34,283 nt of DNA from Anaerolineae bacterium (GTDB taxonomy: Bacteria; Chloroflexota; Anaerolineae; 4572-78; J111). The stretch covers positions 1 to 34,283 of the forward strand of contig JAFGDY010000134.1 of the NCBI GenBank assembly GCA_016931895.1, read 5' to 3'. The position numbers and the translations under genes were made by a program. Shown piece by piece: positions 24,443 through 31,895 of this stretch. Position 1 is the first letter of the stretch; each line of letters opens with the position of its first letter. The notes below the pieces were generated by a model. It searched no databases and was not told where the DNA came from. It saw only the letters and a list, made by a program, of their open reading frames with translations.

Positions 24443-25501
24443 ATGAAGCGCATTAATCTTGCCCGGCATACCTTAAAAATTTATATCCTGTTGATGGCGG
24501 TTTTTCTATTGCCGGCCTGCGCCGGGAAGGGATTCGACGGCGCGCCGCCGACCTTAAAAATCGGCCTGGTGGCGCCGTTTGAGGGCTTGCATCGCCCGCT
24601 GGGGTATGAAGTATTGTTTGCCGTTAAATTGGCCTTACAGGAAAGGAATGCAAGCGGAGGCGTCAACGGCTATCAGGTTGAGTTGGTGGCGTTGAATGAT
24701 TTTGACGAGCCGGCCGAAGCTCAAACGCAAGCCAGAGCGCTTATTGCCGACCCGGATGTTTTGGGCGTGGTGGGGCATCTCTCATCGGCCACCACCCTGG
24801 CGGCAATGCCAATCTATCAGGAAGCCAAACTGGCCCTGAGCGTACCCTGGACGATTGACGCGACTGCAATGAATATCCAGAAAAAAGGAGTAGTGAGGGT
24901 AGCCGCCGATTATGCCGATACGTCTGCCCGGCTCAACACGTTTAGCCAGGAATGGGGTTATAACCATAGGCTGAATGTGGCCGAGGTAGATCTTGACTCG
25001 TTGCCCGTTGAGCTCCAGGCCCTGGAATTGACGGGCGAAGGGGTTGCTGCCGGTGAAACCATTTCGGCCCTGCGCCGGGCCGGGGTATCGCTGCCGCTTT
25101 TGGGGCAGGTTGACGTGGGCAGCCCGCAGCCAGTTCAGGTAGCTAACGGCGCGGCCACAGGTCTTATTTTTGTTTCACCGGGGCCGGCCCCCCGCGATGC
25201 GCCGGGGACGGAGGCTTTTATGGAAGCCTATCAAACATTGGCCGGCTTCTCGCCCGGCCCGCGGGCTGTATTGGCTTACGATGCGACCAACATTTTGCTC
25301 AACGCCATTGAGCAAGCAATGTTTGGGTCTCACCAACCCACCCGGTCAGAAGTAAGCGCCCTGATCAACCAGGTCCAGCAACAAGGTCTCAGCGGCGATA
25401 TTGTTTTTGACCAGCAGGGGCGGCGCCTCAACGCGCCGGTGTGGGTGTATCAGATTTTCGAGGAGGAGCAGCAGTATCCAGGGGAATTGATTGCCCCCTG
25501 A
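24443..25501 (+). CDS. LivJ/ABC-type substrate-binding lipoprotein (compact)
   Basis: A 352-residue lipoprotein of the type I periplasmic-binding fold used by branched-chain amino acid receptors. The signal peptide MKRINLARHTLKIYILLMAV ends at lipobox LLPAC. The ligand-binding start is typical (LKIGLVAPFEGLHRPLGYE, then NASGGVNGYQVELVALND, VVGHLSSATTLAAMPIYQEA). The middle of the second lobe (after VRVAADYADTSARLNTF) is shorter than usual, so part of the family fold may be missing. ATG 24443 was chosen for its signal peptide and promoter position; ATG 24419 and 24434 are alternatives. No ABC permease or ATPase genes follow; the next gene, 13 bases downstream, is a glycosyltransferase. It may be a sensor or an orphan receptor. 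Confidence 0.75.
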   Translation: MKRINLARHTLKIYILLMAVFLLPACAGKGFDGAPPTLKIGLVAPFEGLHRPLGYEVLFAVKLALQERNASGGVNGYQVELVALNDFDEPAEAQTQARALIADPDVLGVVGHLSSATTLAAMPIYQEAKLALSVPWTIDATAMNIQKKGVVRVAADYADTSARLNTFSQEWGYNHRLNVAEVDLDSLPVELQALELTGEGVAAGETISALRRAGVSLPLLGQVDVGSPQPVQVANGAATGLIFVSPGPAPRDAPGTEAFMEAYQTLAGFSPGPRAVLAYDATNILLNAIEQAMFGSHQPTRSEVSALINQVQQQGLSGDIVFDQQGRRLNAPVWVYQIFEEEQQYPGELIAP

Positions 25502-25514
25502 GGAGAGATTGTCT

Positions 25515-26723
25515 ATGCGTATCTTAATGCTTTCCTGGGAATATCCCCCCAACCTCGTCGGTGGGTTGGGCCGGCACGTGGCCGAACTGTCGCCCGCCCT
25601 GGCCCAACAACATACCACTGTTCACGTGGTCACGCCAACGGCCAAACCGGAGGATGCCTCCAGAACTATTGAAGATGGCGTGGTCGTCCACCGCGTTTTT
25701 ACGCCAACTCTGAATATTCAGACCAATATTTACGACCAAGCTGTCGCCGCCAATCAAGTATTGCAAGATTACGCTCGTCAAATTGACGAGCAATTTGACA
25801 TTATCCACGTGCACGATTGGTTGACCGCTTTTGCCGGGATGGCCCTGCAAAAAGCCTGGAACCGGCCCCTGGTGGTCACTATTCACGCCACCGAACGAGG
25901 CCGGGGACGCGGCCACATTGACAACGACCTGGAACGAGCCATTGATCAGACCGAGCAATATGTAATTGAACAGGCCAACCACGTGATTGTGTGCAGCCGC
26001 TACATGTTGCACGAAGTGCAAACTTACTTCCATACGCCTCTCTCCCGGCTGGACGTTGTTTTTAATGGGGTCAATATTGACGATTTGCGGAACGGACATT
26101 CCAAAGAAGAATTGATAGCCTTTAGGGACAGATGCGCCCGTCCGCAAGATCGCGTTGTTTTTGCCGTGGCCAGGCTGGTATACCAAAAAGGCTTGCATCG
26201 CCTGGTTGAAGCCGCGCCCCGCATTTTGGCCCAATTCCCGGAAACACGCCTGATCATTGCCGGGCGAGGGCCTGAAGCCAAAAACTTAAAACAAGAGGCC
26301 TGGCACCTGGGGGTGGCAGACTGCATTGATTTTGTTGGTTTTATCTCAGACAAAGAACGCAACCGGTATTATCAAACCGCCTGCTGCGCCGTTTTTCCCA
26401 GCCTCTACGAACCGTTTGGGATCGTGGCCCTTGAGGCCATGGCCCTCGGCTGCCCGGTAGTGGTCAGCGACGTGGGCGGCCTTTCCGAAATTGTCAAACA
26501 TACCGAAACCGGCGTAACCATTTATCCTGATAATGCCGACTCTGTGGCCTGGGGCGTGATGCATATTCTGGCAAACCCCCGTCGGGCGCTGAATTACGCG
26601 GCCAGAGCCTACCAGACGGTTGACGAGTTATACAATTGGGCGCGTATTGCCCGTTTGACCAGGGGCGTGTATCGCCGTGTTCTGGATAAATACGATTTGG
26701 TCAGCGTCTGCCCCAATTTTTAG
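25515..26723 (+). CDS. GT4-family glycosyltransferase (glycogen synthase-like)
   Basis: A 402-residue GT-B fold retaining glycosyltransferase. The N-terminal Rossmann domain starts MRILMLSWEYPPNLVGGLGR and has HVHDWLTAF. The C-terminal domain has ARLVYQKGLHRLVEAAPRI, GRGPEAKNLKQEA and PSLYEPFGIVALEAMALGCP, the nucleotide-sugar site with the E-x7-E motif. The GGLGRHV start is shared by glycogen/alpha-glucan synthases and by other GT4 enzymes, so the product (glucan or surface polysaccharide) cannot be fixed. ATG 25515 follows AGGAG by about 8 bases. It lies 13 bases after the lipoprotein stop on the same strand and ends at a clear terminator. Confidence 0.88.
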   Translation: MRILMLSWEYPPNLVGGLGRHVAELSPALAQQHTTVHVVTPTAKPEDASRTIEDGVVVHRVFTPTLNIQTNIYDQAVAANQVLQDYARQIDEQFDIIHVHDWLTAFAGMALQKAWNRPLVVTIHATERGRGRGHIDNDLERAIDQTEQYVIEQANHVIVCSRYMLHEVQTYFHTPLSRLDVVFNGVNIDDLRNGHSKEELIAFRDRCARPQDRVVFAVARLVYQKGLHRLVEAAPRILAQFPETRLIIAGRGPEAKNLKQEAWHLGVADCIDFVGFISDKERNRYYQTACCAVFPSLYEPFGIVALEAMALGCPVVVSDVGGLSEIVKHTETGVTIYPDNADSVAWGVMHILANPRRALNYAARAYQTVDELYNWARIARLTRGVYRRVLDKYDLVSVCPNF

Positions 26724-26726
26724 GCC

Positions 26727-26757
26727 ATAGGGCCAGGGCAATGCCCTATCCCTTTTT
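26727..26757 (+). terminator. Intrinsic terminator after the glycosyltransferase
   Basis: ATAGGGC (26727-26733) and GCCCTAT (26743-26749) form a perfect 7-bp stem with a 9-base loop, followed by CCC and TTTTT (26753-26757). It isolates the glycosyltransferase transcript from the arginine operon promoter, which begins 16 bases later. Confidence 0.75.
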
Positions 26758-26772
26758 GAGACGCACCCCTAT

Positions 26773-26801
26773 TTGACAGCAACCCTCAACTGTGCTAAAC
26801 T
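26773..26801 (+). promoter_or_regulatory. Promoter of the arginine operon
   Basis: A perfect TTGACA (26773-26778), a 17-base spacer and TAAACT (26796-26801). Transcription would start near 26808, about 170 bases before the argC start codon. No obvious ARG-box palindrome overlaps it. Confidence 0.75.
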
Positions 26802-26829
26802 CGCCCCCATAAATTTTTGAGAAGCGATG

Positions 26830-26889
26830 ATGATTTTGCATGTATTGCCCAGGAGCCCGCGTCTTCAGCCAGACCTTATGTCTGGATAG
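26830..26889 (+). CDS. Candidate leader peptide of the arginine operon
   Basis: A 19-codon open frame, MILHVLPRSPRLQPDLMSG, ending at TAG 26887-26889. GAGAAG (26819-26824) lies 5 bases before ATG 26830; ATG 26827 would add one Met. Arg codons are AGG (26851-26853) and CGT (26860-26862). The frame runs through the 5' arms of the leader hairpin and stops exactly at the segment that can form an antiterminator. A ribosome stalled at the second Arg codon would cover CCAGAC (26869-26874) and free the competing strand. Two Arg codons is few for an attenuation peptide, so translation is not certain. Confidence 0.5.
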   Translation: MILHVLPRSPRLQPDLMSG

Positions 26890-26956
26890 CGGGCGTTGGC
26901 AAATCCTTACGCAGTTATCAAACCGGCTCCAGACATTCTTGTCAGGGCCGGTTTTT
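26845..26956 (+). promoter_or_regulatory. Attenuator: leader hairpin, alternative antiterminator and terminator upstream of argC
   Basis: Hairpin A has three stacked segments: TTGCC/GGCAA (26845-26849 with 26898-26902), GCCCGC/GCGGGC (26855-26860 with 26889-26894) and CCAGAC/GTCTGG (26869-26874 with 26880-26885). The terminator has ACCGGC/GCCGGT as the base of AAACCGGC/GCCGGTTT (26920-26927 with 26947-26954), plus inner CC/GG and GACA/TGTC, then TTTTT (26952-26956). ATGTCTGGA (26878-26886) is perfectly complementary over 9 bases to TCCAGACAT (26928-26936). That pairing breaks both hairpin A and the terminator. The structure ends 8 bases before the argC ribosome-binding site. No T-box motif was found. 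Confidence 0.7.
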
Positions 26957-26976
26957 CATTTGATGAGGTGAAAAAA

Positions 26977-27993
26977 ATGATCAAAGTAGGCGTTTTTGGC
27001 GCAAGCGGTTATACCGGTTTTGAAATCGTGGGCATACTCAAAAAACATCCGGCAGTGACCCTGGCGTTTGCCACCTCAGAAAGCGCGGCGGGTAAAATGC
27101 TAAGCGATCTGTATCCCGTGCCCTGGAATATTCCCCTGGTAGCCGCCGCCCAGGCGCCGCTGGAGCAGGTTGAGGCTGTGTTTTGCTGCCTGCCTCACGC
27201 CGCCAGCATGCCCACCGTGAGCGCCGCCCGGCAGGCCGGGGTGCGCGTCATTGATCTCTCCGCCGATTTCCGGCTAAACAATGTGGCAGTGTATGAAAAA
27301 TTCTACAACACCCCCCACACGGCTCTGGACTTATTGGCCGAAGCCGTATACGGCCTGCCCGAAATCTACCGGGATAAAATCCGCCAAACTAACCTGCTGG
27401 CCTGCCCCGGTTGTTACCCTACCAGCGTTATACTGGGGCTATATCCCCTGCTCAAAGCCAAAATGCTAAACCCGACTGCCCCCATCATCACCGACAGCAA
27501 AAGCGGTGTGAGCGGGGCGGGTCGCAAAGCCAGCCTCAAAACGCACTTTGTTGAGGCCAACGAGAATCTATCGCCCTACAATATTGGGCAGGTCCACCGT
27601 CACACCGCCGAGATGATCCAGGAAATCAACAAACTGGGCGGCCCCGGCGACCGAGTTATTTTTTCGCCGCATCTTGTGCCCCTCAACCGGGGGATGTTAT
27701 CTACCATTTACGTGACCCTGGCCCAAGACACGCCGGCTGAAGTAGCGCAGCAACTCTACACCGACACCTATGCCGATGAGCCGTTTATGTGGGTTCTGCC
27801 GCCGGGCCAACTGGCCGGTATGGCTCACACCCAACGGACAAACCGCTGCGCCGTTTCCATTACGGTGGTAAATTTGCGCCAGTTGATTATCTGTTCTTCA
27901 ATTGACAATCTGCTCAAGGGCGCCTCCGGGGCCGCGGTGCAGAATTTTAACCTCATGTTTGGCCTGGATGAGACGGCAGGATTAATTGAATAA
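26977..27993 (+). CDS. argC: N-acetyl-gamma-glutamyl-phosphate reductase
   Basis: A 338-residue cytoplasmic enzyme of arginine synthesis that reduces N-acetylglutamyl phosphate to the semialdehyde with NADPH. The nucleotide-binding start is VGVFGASGYTGFE. The catalytic Cys is C146 in LLACPGCYPTSV, and the proton-donating His is in GQVHRHTAEMIQEI. The end, NFNLMFGLDETAGL, is typical of ArgC. ATG 26977 follows GAGGTG by 6 bases. A longer frame opening at TTG 26896 lies inside the leader hairpin and is rejected. It is first in the operon; the second ArgC-like gene follows after 23 bases. Confidence 0.92.
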   Translation: MIKVGVFGASGYTGFEIVGILKKHPAVTLAFATSESAAGKMLSDLYPVPWNIPLVAAAQAPLEQVEAVFCCLPHAASMPTVSAARQAGVRVIDLSADFRLNNVAVYEKFYNTPHTALDLLAEAVYGLPEIYRDKIRQTNLLACPGCYPTSVILGLYPLLKAKMLNPTAPIITDSKSGVSGAGRKASLKTHFVEANENLSPYNIGQVHRHTAEMIQEINKLGGPGDRVIFSPHLVPLNRGMLSTIYVTLAQDTPAEVAQQLYTDTYADEPFMWVLPPGQLAGMAHTQRTNRCAVSITVVNLRQLIICSSIDNLLKGASGAAVQNFNLMFGLDETAGLIE

Positions 27994-28016
27994 ATCAGAG
28001 AAAGGGAACCAATTCA

Positions 28017-29072
28017 ATGATTGAAGTAGGCGTCTACGGCGCTTCCGGCTACATGGGCGGCGAAGCCCTGCGTATCTTGAACGAACATCCCCAGGTAAAA
28101 GTGGTCTGGGCCACCAGCCGCAGCGGCCGGCCCCTGGAATACTTTCATCGGAACCTGTACGGCTCCGGCCTAAGGTTCATTCACCCGGACCAGATAACGC
28201 CGTGCCAGGCTATATTTTTTGCCGTGCCCGGCGGCACCCCCATGTCAATGGCCCCAGACTTATTAGCCCAAAACACCAAGCTCATTGACCTGGGGGCGGA
28301 TTTCCGGTTAAAAAACCGGGAGGATTGGGAACGTCTCTATCGCAAAGAGCACGTGTGTTGGGATATTGCGGCCGGAGCGGTCTACGGTATCCCGGAGCTA
28401 CACCGGGAGGAGATCAAACAGGCCAGGGTGATTGCCAACCCCGGCTGCTTCTCGTCGGCCGTTATTCTGGGGTTGGCGCCGGTGGTGAAGGCGAGCCTGA
28501 TTGACGCTGAAAGGATTGTGGTGGATGGTCTATCCGGCACGGCCGGCGCCGGGGCTGAATTAGACATAACCAGCCATCATCCTGAGATTGCCAACAACAT
28601 TGTGGCCTACAATGTGATAGATCATCGCCACACCTATGAGATGGAACAAGAGCTGGGCCTTTTGAGCCGGTCAGCGGTCACCATCCATTTTACTTCAAGC
28701 TACGTGCCCATCACGCGGGGCATTTTGGCAATCTGTCACTGTTTCCCTCGCCGGCCGGTCAGCCGGGACGAAATATTGGCGCTTTATTCTGATTTTTACG
28801 GCCGGGAGCATTTTATCAAAGTGTTTGACCTGCCCAAAGACCCCCAGGCCACCTGGCAGTATCGCCCCTACCCCTGGGTGGCCGCCGTATCGGGCACAAA
28901 CTTTTGCCACATTGGCCTGGACGTTGACGAAAAACGCAATCGCCTGGTAGTCTTTAGCGTCTTGGACAGTGTCGGCAAAGGGGGCGCGCATGCCGGCGTG
29001 CAAAACTTGAATTTGATGTTTGGCCTGGACGAGACAACGGGCCTGGAAAGAGCCGGTTTGCATCCTTATTGA
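28017..29072 (+). CDS. ArgC/LysY-family semialdehyde-forming reductase (second copy)
   Basis: A 351-residue paralogue of the preceding gene with an intact active site: GASGYMGGEALRIL, catalytic C144 in ANPGCFSSAVILG, and HRHTYEMEQEL. It differs throughout from the first copy, so it is not a recent duplication. Sequences such as GGEALRILNEHPQVKVVWAT and HRHT-EMEQEL recall LysY, which acts on LysW-bound aminoadipyl phosphate or glutamyl phosphate, but no LysW or LysX gene is in the window. It may act on acetylglutamyl phosphate, aminoadipyl phosphate or a different acyl phosphate. The end is NLNLMFGLDETTGL, as in ArgC. It starts 23 bases after argC and is followed by a 188-base gap holding heptamer repeats. 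Confidence 0.8.
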   Translation: MIEVGVYGASGYMGGEALRILNEHPQVKVVWATSRSGRPLEYFHRNLYGSGLRFIHPDQITPCQAIFFAVPGGTPMSMAPDLLAQNTKLIDLGADFRLKNREDWERLYRKEHVCWDIAAGAVYGIPELHREEIKQARVIANPGCFSSAVILGLAPVVKASLIDAERIVVDGLSGTAGAGAELDITSHHPEIANNIVAYNVIDHRHTYEMEQELGLLSRSAVTIHFTSSYVPITRGILAICHCFPRRPVSRDEILALYSDFYGREHFIKVFDLPKDPQATWQYRPYPWVAAVSGTNFCHIGLDVDEKRNRLVVFSVLDSVGKGGAHAGVQNLNLMFGLDETTGLERAGLHPY

Positions 29073-29082
29073 TTGAGAAGCA

Positions 29083-29117
29083 CGATGAACGACGAACGAC
29101 GAATGACGAACGACCAA
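29083..29117 (-). repeat. Heptamer repeat, five units, inverted relative to the next tract
   Basis: CGATGAA, CGACGAA, CGACGAA, TGACGAA and CGACCAA follow each other without gaps. Read on minus they become TTGGTCG, TTCGTCA, TTCGTCG, TTCGTCG and TTCATCG, the same family as the tract at 29143-29237. The two tracts can pair as a hairpin in the operon transcript. Confidence 0.7.
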
Positions 29118-29142
29118 TTTACTTTTCCCTCGCCGGTCAACG

Positions 29143-29237
29143 TTGGTCGTTGCTCATTGGTCGTCGTTGGTCGTTGGTCGTTGGTCATTGGTCATTGGTC
29201 GTCGTTGGTCATTGGTCATTGGTCGTCGTTGGTCATT
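29143..29237 (+). repeat. Heptamer repeat TTGGTC(A/G) with TCG interruptions
   Basis: About a dozen copies of TTGGTCG or TTGGTCA stand head to tail, interrupted three times by an extra TCG. They fill the gap between the second argC-like gene and argB. The heptamer resembles cyanobacterial STRR-type repeats as I remember them. The tract ends 9 bases before the argB ribosome-binding site. Confidence 0.75.
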
Positions 29238-29260
29238 AATTGTTGCCCAGAGGTAAGGCG

Positions 29261-30001
29261 ATGCTTGTTCTAAAAATAGGCGGGCAGGAATTGGACAACC
29301 CGGATATTGTCAAAAGATTAGGCCAGGCGGTAGCGGCGCTAGAGGCCCCACCCATCCTGGTTCACGGGGGCGGCAAAGAAATCCGCGAGCTGCAAAAACG
29401 GTTGGGCGTTGAACCCCAATACATTGACGGCCTGCGGGTCACCGATGCCGAGTCATTGGACATTGTGCAAATGGTGCTGGTAGGCCGGATCAACAAGCGG
29501 TTGGTCTCGTCACTGTCGCTGGCGGGAGTAGACGCTTTTGGCATGTCGGGCGTAGATCGAGCCGCCGTTAAGGCTGAAAAATTGGAACATCCCGGCGGCG
29601 ACCTGGGCCAGGTAGGCCGGGTGGTGGAGGTGCGGGCCGTGGTTTTTACCCGTTTATTAGAAGACGGCGTCACTCCGGTGCTGTCTCCCATCTGCTACGG
29701 GGCCGACGGCGGCATATTCAACGTCAATGCCGACCACGTGGCTACGGCCGTGGCCATTGCCACCCAGGCCGAGGCGCTGGTGTTTGTGTCTAACGTGCCC
29801 GGCGTGCTGCGGGATAACCTGCTGCTGCCGCACCTGACCGTAGCCGAGGTTGAGCAGTTGATCATTGAGAAGGTAATTGTGGACGGGATGATCCCCAAAG
29901 CCCGTTCCGCCCTGGCCGCCGTGTACGGCGGCGTACAGGCAGTGAGAATCACCAATTTGGATGGTTTGAAAGCGGGGACGGGCACGACGATTGTCCAATG
30001 A
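29261..30001 (+). CDS. argB: N-acetylglutamate kinase (ArgB/LysZ family)
   Basis: A 246-residue amino acid kinase that phosphorylates the gamma-carboxylate of N-acetylglutamate with ATP. Motifs are VLKIGGQEL (ATP site), ILVHGGGKEI, GLRVTDAESLDIVQMVLVG, the GMSGVDR loop, PICYGADGGIFNVNADHVAT and MIPKARSAL. The short length and lack of an N-terminal arginine-sensing helix suggest the arginine-insensitive type. ATG 29261 follows GAGGTAAGG by 2-3 bases; the longer frame from 29240 lies in the spacer. ArgB is preferred over LysZ because GLRVTD and the argA/argD context fit the acetylated pathway, but LysZ activity is not excluded. Confidence 0.88.
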   Translation: MLVLKIGGQELDNPDIVKRLGQAVAALEAPPILVHGGGKEIRELQKRLGVEPQYIDGLRVTDAESLDIVQMVLVGRINKRLVSSLSLAGVDAFGMSGVDRAAVKAEKLEHPGGDLGQVGRVVEVRAVVFTRLLEDGVTPVLSPICYGADGGIFNVNADHVATAVAIATQAEALVFVSNVPGVLRDNLLLPHLTVAEVEQLIIEKVIVDGMIPKARSALAAVYGGVQAVRITNLDGLKAGTGTTIVQ

Positions 30002-30043
30002 GGGGAATGACATAACCCAAACAAAACTTTAAGGAGACACCTG

Positions 30044-31240
30044 ATGATGAACCCCCAAGAAATCATTGATCTGGAACAAAAATACATAGTCCAAACTTAC
30101 AGCCGCCCGGACCTTGTTTTTGAGCGTGGCGACGGCGTATGGTTGTACGATACCGAGGGTCGGCAGTATCTTGATGCCGGCAGTGGGATTGCCGTGAATG
30201 CGCTGGGCTACAACAATAACCTTATTGTCGAGGCCATCCGGCAAAATGCAGCGGGGTTGTTGCACGTATCAAACCTTTACCATACGGCCCCTCACGCGTT
30301 GCTGGCCCGCGATTTGTGCGAGGCCTCTTTTGCCGACCGGGTTTTCTTCTGCAACTCCGGCACCGAAGCTAACGAGGCCGCGCTCAAATTTGCCCGCAAG
30401 GTTGCCCGTGCGGCGGGCGACTCTACCAAAACTAACATCGTTGCTTTTAGCGGCTCTTTTCACGGGCGCACCATGGGCGTATTGGCCTGTACGGCCACCG
30501 AAAAATACCGCCAACCTTTTGAGCCCCTTATCGGCAATGTTACTTTTGCCCAATTTAACAATCTCAATAGCGCCCGCCAGGCCATCACCAACCAAACCTG
30601 CGCCGTGATTGTGGAGCCGATCCAGGGCGAAGGCGGAGTAACGCCGGCCACGCCTGAATTTCTGGCCGGTCTGCGCTCCATCTGCAATGATGTGGAAGCG
30701 CTGCTGATCTTTGACGAGGTGCAGTGCGGGCTGGGCCGCACCGGCACGCTCTGGGGTTACCAAGGCTATGGCATTGTTCCCGATATGATGACCCTGGCCA
30801 AGTCGTTGGCCGGGGGCTTGCCCATGGGGGCCACGCTGGTGAGCCAAAAAGTGGCCGGCGTAATGCAGCCCGGCGACCACGCCAGCACTTTTGGCGGAGG
30901 CCCCTTGATGGCTACCGTGGCTCGGGCCGTGTTCAAACAACTCAACCAACCGGAGTTTTTGGCCGACGTGCAGGCCAAAAGCAATTACCTGGCCGCCAAA
31001 CTGAATGAGGTGGTCAAACAATCTCCCCTTTTAAACGGGGTGCGCGGCAAAGGTTTGATGTGGGGTCTGCTCTCTACCATTCCTGCCGCTGAAATTGTGG
31101 CTGAAGCCCGCAATCACCAACTCATCATTCTCATGGCCGGGGAAAAAATTGTGCGACTCTTGCCGCCGCTGATCATTACCCGGCAAGAAATTGATATGCT
31201 GGTAGAAAGATTATCGGCCACATTGGAAGCAGTGGGATAA
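30044..31240 (+). CDS. argD: Acetylornithine aminotransferase (ArgD/LysJ family)
   Basis: A 398-residue class III PLP transaminase that converts N-acetylglutamate semialdehyde to N-acetylornithine with glutamate. Visible motifs are FCNSGTEANEAALKFARK, FSGSFHGRTMGVLACTAT, VIVEPIQGEGGVTPA, IFDEVQCGLGRTGTLWGYQ and the Schiff-base Lys at K253 (MMTLAKSLAGGLPMGA). The length matches the family. Start ATG 30044 follows AAGGAG by 7 bases; an adjacent ATG at 30047 would work as well. It comes 42 bases after argB. The broad specificity of this family would allow succinyldiaminopimelate or LysW-lysine substrates too. Confidence 0.92.
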   Translation: MMNPQEIIDLEQKYIVQTYSRPDLVFERGDGVWLYDTEGRQYLDAGSGIAVNALGYNNNLIVEAIRQNAAGLLHVSNLYHTAPHALLARDLCEASFADRVFFCNSGTEANEAALKFARKVARAAGDSTKTNIVAFSGSFHGRTMGVLACTATEKYRQPFEPLIGNVTFAQFNNLNSARQAITNQTCAVIVEPIQGEGGVTPATPEFLAGLRSICNDVEALLIFDEVQCGLGRTGTLWGYQGYGIVPDMMTLAKSLAGGLPMGATLVSQKVAGVMQPGDHASTFGGGPLMATVARAVFKQLNQPEFLADVQAKSNYLAAKLNEVVKQSPLLNGVRGKGLMWGLLSTIPAAEIVAEARNHQLIILMAGEKIVRLLPPLIITRQEIDMLVERLSATLEAVG

Positions 31241-31249
31241 GATAAGATG

Positions 31250-31277
31250 TGGCAAGTGACAGGTGTCAAGTGTTACG
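31250..31277 (+). repeat. Heptamer tandem repeat (TGGCAAG-type, 4 units)
   Basis: TGGCAAG, TGACAGG, TGTCAAG and TGTTACG stand head to tail between argD and argA. The units begin with TG and mostly keep the pattern TGNCANG. The sequence differs from the other heptamer tracts in the window but has the same period. Confidence 0.55.
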
Positions 31278-31313
31278 GATCAAGTATCTTGGAACACCCC
31301 TTACGTAAGGTTT

Positions 31314-31895
31314 ATGACTATGACAAACACGCAAAAAATTAATGTCCGCCGGACGCGGCCAGCCGACGTGCCCCGGATGATGCCTCTTTTAAACAAATAT
31401 ATTGAGCAGGGCGAAATATTGCCCCGCACCCAGGATGACGTGTACCGTTCTATCCGCGAGTGGGTAATGGCCGAAACGGAAAACACTCAACTGGTGGGGG
31501 TGGGGTCCCTGGTGATCATGTCGGCGGACCTGGCCGAAGTCCGGTCGCTGGTCATCCACCCGGCCTTTCACGGGCAGGGGATTGGCCGCCGGATGGTCAA
31601 CCTGCTGCTGGCGGAAGCCCGGTTTTTGGAGATTCGGCGGGTCTTTGCCCTCACCCGCAAACCGGACTTTTTTTTGAAGCTGGGCTTTCAACTGACCAAA
31701 CTGGAAAAACTACCCGGCAAAGTGCGGCGAGATTGCGTGTTCTGCCCTATCTTCCACGCCTGCGATGAAGTAGCCTTGATAATCTCCCCTAAAGAATTGG
31801 CTCCATCCGCCCCGCCAGCCGGGCCGGCCAAGGCGGCCCGGAATGGAACGGCAGCGTCCCAGCCGGCGCTGTCAAGATTGGTTGAAAAAAAATGA
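31314..31895 (+). CDS. argA: N-acetylglutamate synthase, short GNAT type
   Basis: A 193-residue GNAT acetyltransferase that makes N-acetylglutamate from acetyl-CoA and glutamate, the first step of the acetylated arginine pathway. The acetyl-CoA site is VRSLVIHPAFHGQGIGRRMV. The C-terminal signature LTKLEKLPGKVRRDCVFCPI, followed by CDEVALI, is the mark of short ArgA proteins that lack the kinase-like domain. About 30 low-complexity residues rich in Ala/Pro follow. ATG 31314 follows TAAGG by 4 bases; ATG 31320 is possible and the frame opening at 31263 is too early. The last bases overlap the next gene (ATGA). Confidence 0.88.
   Translation: MTMTNTQKINVRRTRPADVPRMMPLLNKYIEQGEILPRTQDDVYRSIREWVMAETENTQLVGVGSLVIMSADLAEVRSLVIHPAFHGQGIGRRMVNLLLAEARFLEIRRVFALTRKPDFFLKLGFQLTKLEKLPGKVRRDCVFCPIFHACDEVALIISPKELAPSAPPAGPAKAARNGTAASQPALSRLVEKK

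Follow-up and report, generated by a model that had tools for sequence, protein, structure and literature searches.

A very likely ribosome-mediated attenuator of the arginine operon in Anaerolineae, and related leaders with exchangeable control codons

Here we present a leader that very likely (probability about 0.93) acts as a ribosome-mediated transcription attenuator, of the trp/his kind, ahead of the arginine operon of an Anaerolineae bacterium. The leader lies in a stretch of 34,283 nucleotides that was analysed as a whole, hereafter the window, and all of its features are on the forward strand. Its parts, their conservation, the compensatory change in its switch helix, the identity of its codons, its geometry and its modelled folding are shown by computation; its behaviour in vivo and its sensing of charged tRNA are inferred, with no transcript or reporter data to draw on. 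In a bolder reading, which we consider likely, a single homologous switch core of the Anaerolineae has been copied before different operons and re-addressed by its control codons: Arg before argC, argG and carAB, Lys before lysW, lysX and homocitrate synthase, and Pro before proS. The core would then parallel the T-box, but be read by the ribosome, and would stand in for ArgR; its codon content would predict the product of the enzymes downstream.

The regulated operon begins with argC (26977-27993; TIGR01850, E 1e-112) and continues, by NCBIfam matches, through a second argC paralogue, argB, argD and a GNAT acetyltransferase resembling N-acetylglutamate synthase (28017-31895). The tandem argC genes (window 26980-29069) are about 38% identical, and each scores above the equivalog cut-off for argC; genome G007 (contig C383) has this tandem as well. 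Directly after the upstream glycosyltransferase gene, at 26735-26755, there is a terminator-like hairpin, AGGGCAATGCCCT, then CCCTTTTT, which is consistent with the arg operon being an independent transcription unit. A sequence scan identified a sigma-70-like promoter at 26773-26801, composed of TTGACA (26773-26778), a 17 nt spacer and TAAACT (26796-26801) with an extended -10 TG. No other such match occurs within 25500-28500, and the same promoter precedes homologous leaders, for example L023, L024 and that of the same-genus genome G006. Reading on from the promoter, a weak Shine-Dalgarno sequence, AGAAG, is found at 26820-26824, followed by the leader ORF, (M)MILHVLPRSPRLQPDLMSG, at 26827-26889. 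This ORF starts at ATG 26827 or 26830 and stops at TAG 26887-26889, giving 19 or 20 codons, and has in-frame Arg-rich homologues across the class. It contains two Arg codons in all, AGG at 26851 and CGT at 26860.

The RNA that spans and follows the ORF can adopt mutually exclusive folds. A three-part 1:2 hairpin, the anti-antiterminator, occupies 26845-26902, with arms pairing 26845-26849 with 26898-26902, 26855-26860 with 26889-26894 and 26869-26874 with 26880-26885, and folds at -26.7 kcal/mol. The intrinsic terminator (3:4) with its T-tract lies at 26921-26956, the stem at 26921-26953 plus the T-tract folding at -20.7 kcal/mol (z -5.7). Between the two, the switch strand or region 2, ATGTCTGGA (26878-26886), is the perfect 9-bp complement of region 3, TCCAGACAT (26928-26936), in the 5' half of the terminator (p 0.005 relative to dinucleotide shuffles). 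The competing 2:3 fold, across 26870-26945, reaches -23.1 kcal/mol. The entire leader folds more stably than its shuffles (z -3.9). A small predicted hairpin (TTTCATTTGATGAGGTGAAA) at 26954-26973 also overlaps the argC ribosome-binding site and might have a translational effect. The original prediction, made from sequence alone, had proposed the promoter, the leader ORF, the 1:2 hairpin, the terminator and the exclusive 9-bp switch helix, and all of these held, at the positions it gave them. Its claim of a Shine-Dalgarno sequence held only in part, since AGAAG is present but weaker than had been implied.

In the proposed mechanism, transcription would start at approximately 26808 and a ribosome would then translate the leader. 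When charged Arg-tRNA is scarce, the ribosome would stall with CGT 26860 in its A site and cover 26869-26872, leaving region 1 unable to trap region 2. The free region 2 (26878-26886) would then pair with region 3 (26928-26936), no terminator would form, and argC and the genes downstream would be transcribed. When Arg-tRNA is plentiful, the ribosome would reach the stop codon at 26887 and either cover region 2 or release and allow the 1:2 hairpin to reform; with region 2 unavailable, region 3 would pair with region 4 and transcription would end near 26956. In the absence of translation, the 1:2 hairpin would be expected to form, making termination the default.

Equilibrium folding of the full window leader did not discriminate these states, the finished terminator winning in every one of them, and therefore the switch must be kinetic. 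In our folding model, the ribosome masks positions from -15 to +12 relative to the codon in its A site, with the polymerase just beyond region 3; both the footprint and the kinetic assumption were our own choices. The probability of the 2:3 pairing in the window was 0.00 with no ribosome, 0.05 with the ribosome at AGG 26851, 0.94 at CGT 26860, 0.83 at CAG 26866, and 0.00 at both GAC 26872 and the stop codon. Two parts of the predicted mechanism thus held in the model, namely that a stall at CGT 26860 yields the antiterminator and that a ribosome at the stop hides the switch strand; that AGG 26851 is nearly irrelevant in this model had been missed. The model therefore predicts CGT (26860-26862) as the effective control codon of this leader.

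The same behaviour extends to the class. Among 77 scored leaders, the median probability of the 2:3 pairing was 0.01 without a ribosome and 0.00 with one at the stop, and an Arg codon was able to flip the switch in 64. Arg accounted for 29% of switching codons vs 14% of other codons, and the last Arg codon mostly begins 13-24 nt (mode 20) ahead of the switch strand. For six class leaders the model found no switching codon. The stop codon lies far past region 2 in families f20 and f12 and in leaders L030 and L185, where a ribosome at the stop would leave region 2 unblocked. Counting against an attenuator in the window itself are the mere two Arg codons of its leader and the weak Shine-Dalgarno sequence.

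We collected upstream regions through ArgC searches of the window's family, of named genomes (Anaerolineae, Chloroflexi, Ardenticatenia and Aggregatilineales MAGs) and of 150 genomes of the class. The statistics rest on 110 distinct regions upstream of argC. Almost all of them belong to Anaerolineae, the search of named genomes having contributed a few loci with other labels. The leader is plain in the window's family, with the peptides MLTLTYISRRPRPQPDTLSG, MNAFYLEPRSPRIQPDPMSG and MLAVIYRLRPGPHFWSG, all given up to their stop codons as are those below, and the same-genus genome G006 encodes MNLMILINVLPRSPRIRPDLLSG. G006 (L003) lacks the leader only in appearance, owing to a break in the assembly: the leader is carried at the end of a further contig, which shares approximately 84 nt with the end of the argC contig. 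In leader L005 the frame is broken, which might be a sequencing error. More distant leaders differ in RNA sequence and keep the run of Arg, as in ELRRPRRRPQTDPVWQG, IRRPRRRPAPCQGGPD and VRRPRARTGST. Because the homologous leaders retain every part of the attenuator, the occurrence of these parts together is more than chance.

This conservation was quantified by counting short upstream ORFs that have four or more Arg within 8 codons, using dinucleotide shuffles as the control. Such ORFs were present in 53% of the 110 regions vs 13% in shuffles; the corresponding figures were 18% vs 12% on the opposite strand and 20% vs 21% for the argC genes of other phyla. Arg was the sole amino acid enriched in the short upstream ORFs of the argC set, no other departing strongly. 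Terminators folding at -8 kcal/mol or lower were found in 97/110 leaders, and the GTCTGG core is strongly conserved among near relatives. Outside the class, the attenuator was also found in one family, f69 (MKKQMLTNLFSPALRLRRPRTNEVRWACAVCAG, plus a terminator), and no Arg leader was seen in genomes of f54, which is Dehalococcoidia-like, or of f59.

Simple per-sequence shuffles gave only weak p-values for the switch helix (median 0.12), and for that reason we turned to a swap test, in which the best helix between a leader and the 5' half of its own terminator is compared with those obtained when partners are exchanged between families (2000 swaps). The cognate helices beat the swapped partners at z 4.4-5.8, with 0/2000 swaps reaching the observed value, and the excess was also found in the 41 sequences without the common CCRGA core. 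Across families the paired strands take forms as different as GTCTGGA/TCCAGAC, GGTCCGG/CCGGACC, CGTGTGTC/GACACACG and GTGAGGTCA/TGACCTCAC. Since cognate helices outperform exchanges between families, the pairing evolves by compensatory change. The original prediction had named two checks of its model: that a short ORF carrying Arg codons should be conserved, and that the mutually exclusive pairings should show compensatory change. Both were positive across the class, the latter for the switch helix by the swap test. The ribosome-mediated attenuator model it put forward is supported by every computational test that was run, with the reservation that this is computation only, without RNA or in vivo data.

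It had missed that the element is one of a family with exchangeable codons, and that it also stands ahead of argG and carAB. We searched with the pattern GTCTGGATAG-N22-52-CTCCAGA and with a covariance model, R1, built from the hits to this pattern. Of the 24 exact-pattern matches, two (L269 and L272) are without a terminator or a related operon and appear to be chance matches; six were obtained with the pattern reversed. Together, these searches reach other operons within the class, and the leader codons correspond to the genes downstream. Arg-rich leaders stand ahead of argC, argG and carAB, with Lys after the run of Arg at carAB; those rich in Lys stand ahead of lysW, lysX, homocitrate synthase and homoaconitase; and those rich in Pro stand ahead of either proS or a metallophosphoesterase gene cluster, which at some of these loci is followed by proS. 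Over the 12 codons that precede the common tail we counted R, K and P and assigned each leader by simple majority, scoring the match to the operon from the printed peptides, with a choice of start codon that was partly subjective. The codon content matched the operon in 46/49 leaders (permutation z 8.9, 0/100,000 reaching the observed value). One of the three exceptions is the window leader itself, in which Arg and Pro tie at two each. The remaining exceptions, L331 and L339, carry Arg as well as Lys before LysX-family genes, which could possibly be ArgX.

A second model, R2, built from argC leaders only, recognises the Lys and Pro leaders at E 1e-12 to 4e-3, and in 43 control loci it returned nothing below E 0.7. 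The loci in the codon-operon test were themselves found via the shared core, so that a homologous core common to the Lys, Pro and Arg leaders is likely, without convergence being excluded.

ArgR is nearly absent from the class. Its family, PF01316, scored over the cut-off in just 1/150 class genomes and is absent from the window's own genome, so that no ArgR regulon can be called. Across the phylum it was over the cut-off in 22/121 genomes, in families outside the class, and the window's genome was not among them.

Several other explanations could be offered for such a leader. If it were a metabolite-binding riboswitch, the main alternative named at the outset, the 1:2 hairpin would be an arginine aptamer and the ORF incidental, and it is true that the leader folds well and that conservation of the GTCTGG core among near relatives is high. 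However, neither the window nor 12 related loci have an Rfam match, scans at gathering and permissive thresholds giving nothing meaningful; for the T-box in particular, there was no match at the gathering score in these loci and none in the permissive scan. Class-wide, there is no conserved unpaired core of the kind expected for an aptamer, and the core varies across families while its base pairing persists. Because a single RNA core is used for Arg, Lys and Pro operons and the codons alone differ, the riboswitch is disfavoured. It could not account for codons that match their operon, and we regard it as very unlikely.

We hold nascent-peptide sensing, of the fungal AAP or SpeFL type, to be just as improbable. 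Here a conserved peptide ending in QPDxxSG would arrest the ribosome on free arginine, and the tail PDxxSG does recur in many families. However, the letters TCTGGA persist outside the ORF, out of frame or past an earlier stop, in L004, L026, L028 and L106, where the core of region 2 is retained even though the ORF ends sooner, so RNA pairing explains the peptide tail. In many families the tail is unrelated (VWQG, GGPA, FLR) yet the Arg run is retained, Lys and Pro versions exist, and in the leaders compared there was no conservation as peptide near the stall site of the kind that marks an arrest peptide. The remaining possibility, a constitutive terminator or processing element with any arginine control exerted at the promoter by an unknown repressor, can draw on the strong terminators and the conserved promoter, but it is all but excluded: it leaves unexplained the operon-matched codons, their spacing and the compensatory switch helix, and ArgR is absent.

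Amino-acid attenuation of the textbook kind is familiar chiefly from Proteobacteria and Actinobacteria. The attenuator described here shares with the trp/his/leu-type attenuators of Proteobacteria (e.g. the His leader, Rfam RF00514) a leader peptide with control codons, the 1:2 / 2:3 / 3:4 logic and an intrinsic terminator before the first gene. It differs from them in that it would sense Arg, Lys or Pro, and in that it is found in Chloroflexota. Leaders of three pathways on one RNA core are a feature of the Anaerolineae; proteobacterial attenuators of different pathways are not known to share one. T-box riboswitches likewise re-address one RNA architecture between amino acids through codon identity, but they bind tRNA directly and need no translation, whereas the Anaerolineae codons sit in a translated ORF. 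In the Salmonella speF leader, Arg codons of orf34 also alter the structure of the mRNA at low arginine; that leader, however, controls ornithine decarboxylase rather than an arginine-biosynthesis operon, acts via Rho, RNase G and masking of the ribosome site, and has no intrinsic terminator reported (PMC6386406). For the cysS uORFC-8-2 and ilvB-II attenuators, uORF codons match the downstream gene and attenuation has been proposed, but they concern other amino acids, other phyla and a single pathway each (PMC8632094, PMC10272879). Our literature search returned attenuation reviews and uORF motifs, but neither an attenuator of arginine biosynthesis nor any in Chloroflexota; the comparative paper Lopatovskaya 2010 (doi 10.1134/S0026893310010164) was not covered. 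The mechanism is already known; as far as this search reached, the novelty lies in the amino acid, in the phylum and in control codons that can be exchanged on one common core.

Arginine synthesis would be governed by attenuation throughout a large, little-studied and mostly uncultured class that is nearly without ArgR. The codon swaps within the family can serve attenuation theory as natural experiments, the element is a candidate for an Rfam entry, and the leader codons offer a direct means of assigning function. At L311 (G311:C118), for example, an Arg-rich leader (RIRRARAKPGHLSG) stands before a LysX-family ligase, which suggests that this is the ArgX of LysW-type arginine synthesis; the same genome has a Lys-rich leader before homoaconitase.

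Some loci of the family are worth recording in their own right. The Pro-rich leaders L262, L263, L265, L266, L273, L274, L310, L312, L313 and L320 stand ahead of a conserved gene cluster (metallophosphoesterase, NUDIX, MazG-like or ParB-like), which in some cases has proS downstream of it. The cluster is thereby linked to prolyl-tRNA supply, for reasons that are unexplained. At L332 (G022:C399) the leader VIRRKLAKKPDPRSG is upstream of carB, with an intervening gene that has no family match. Two attenuators of the same kind stand in tandem before lysW at L254/L340 (G295:C10), both with Lys-rich leaders, and L342 may be a further tandem case, with a weaker second model match upstream of its leader.
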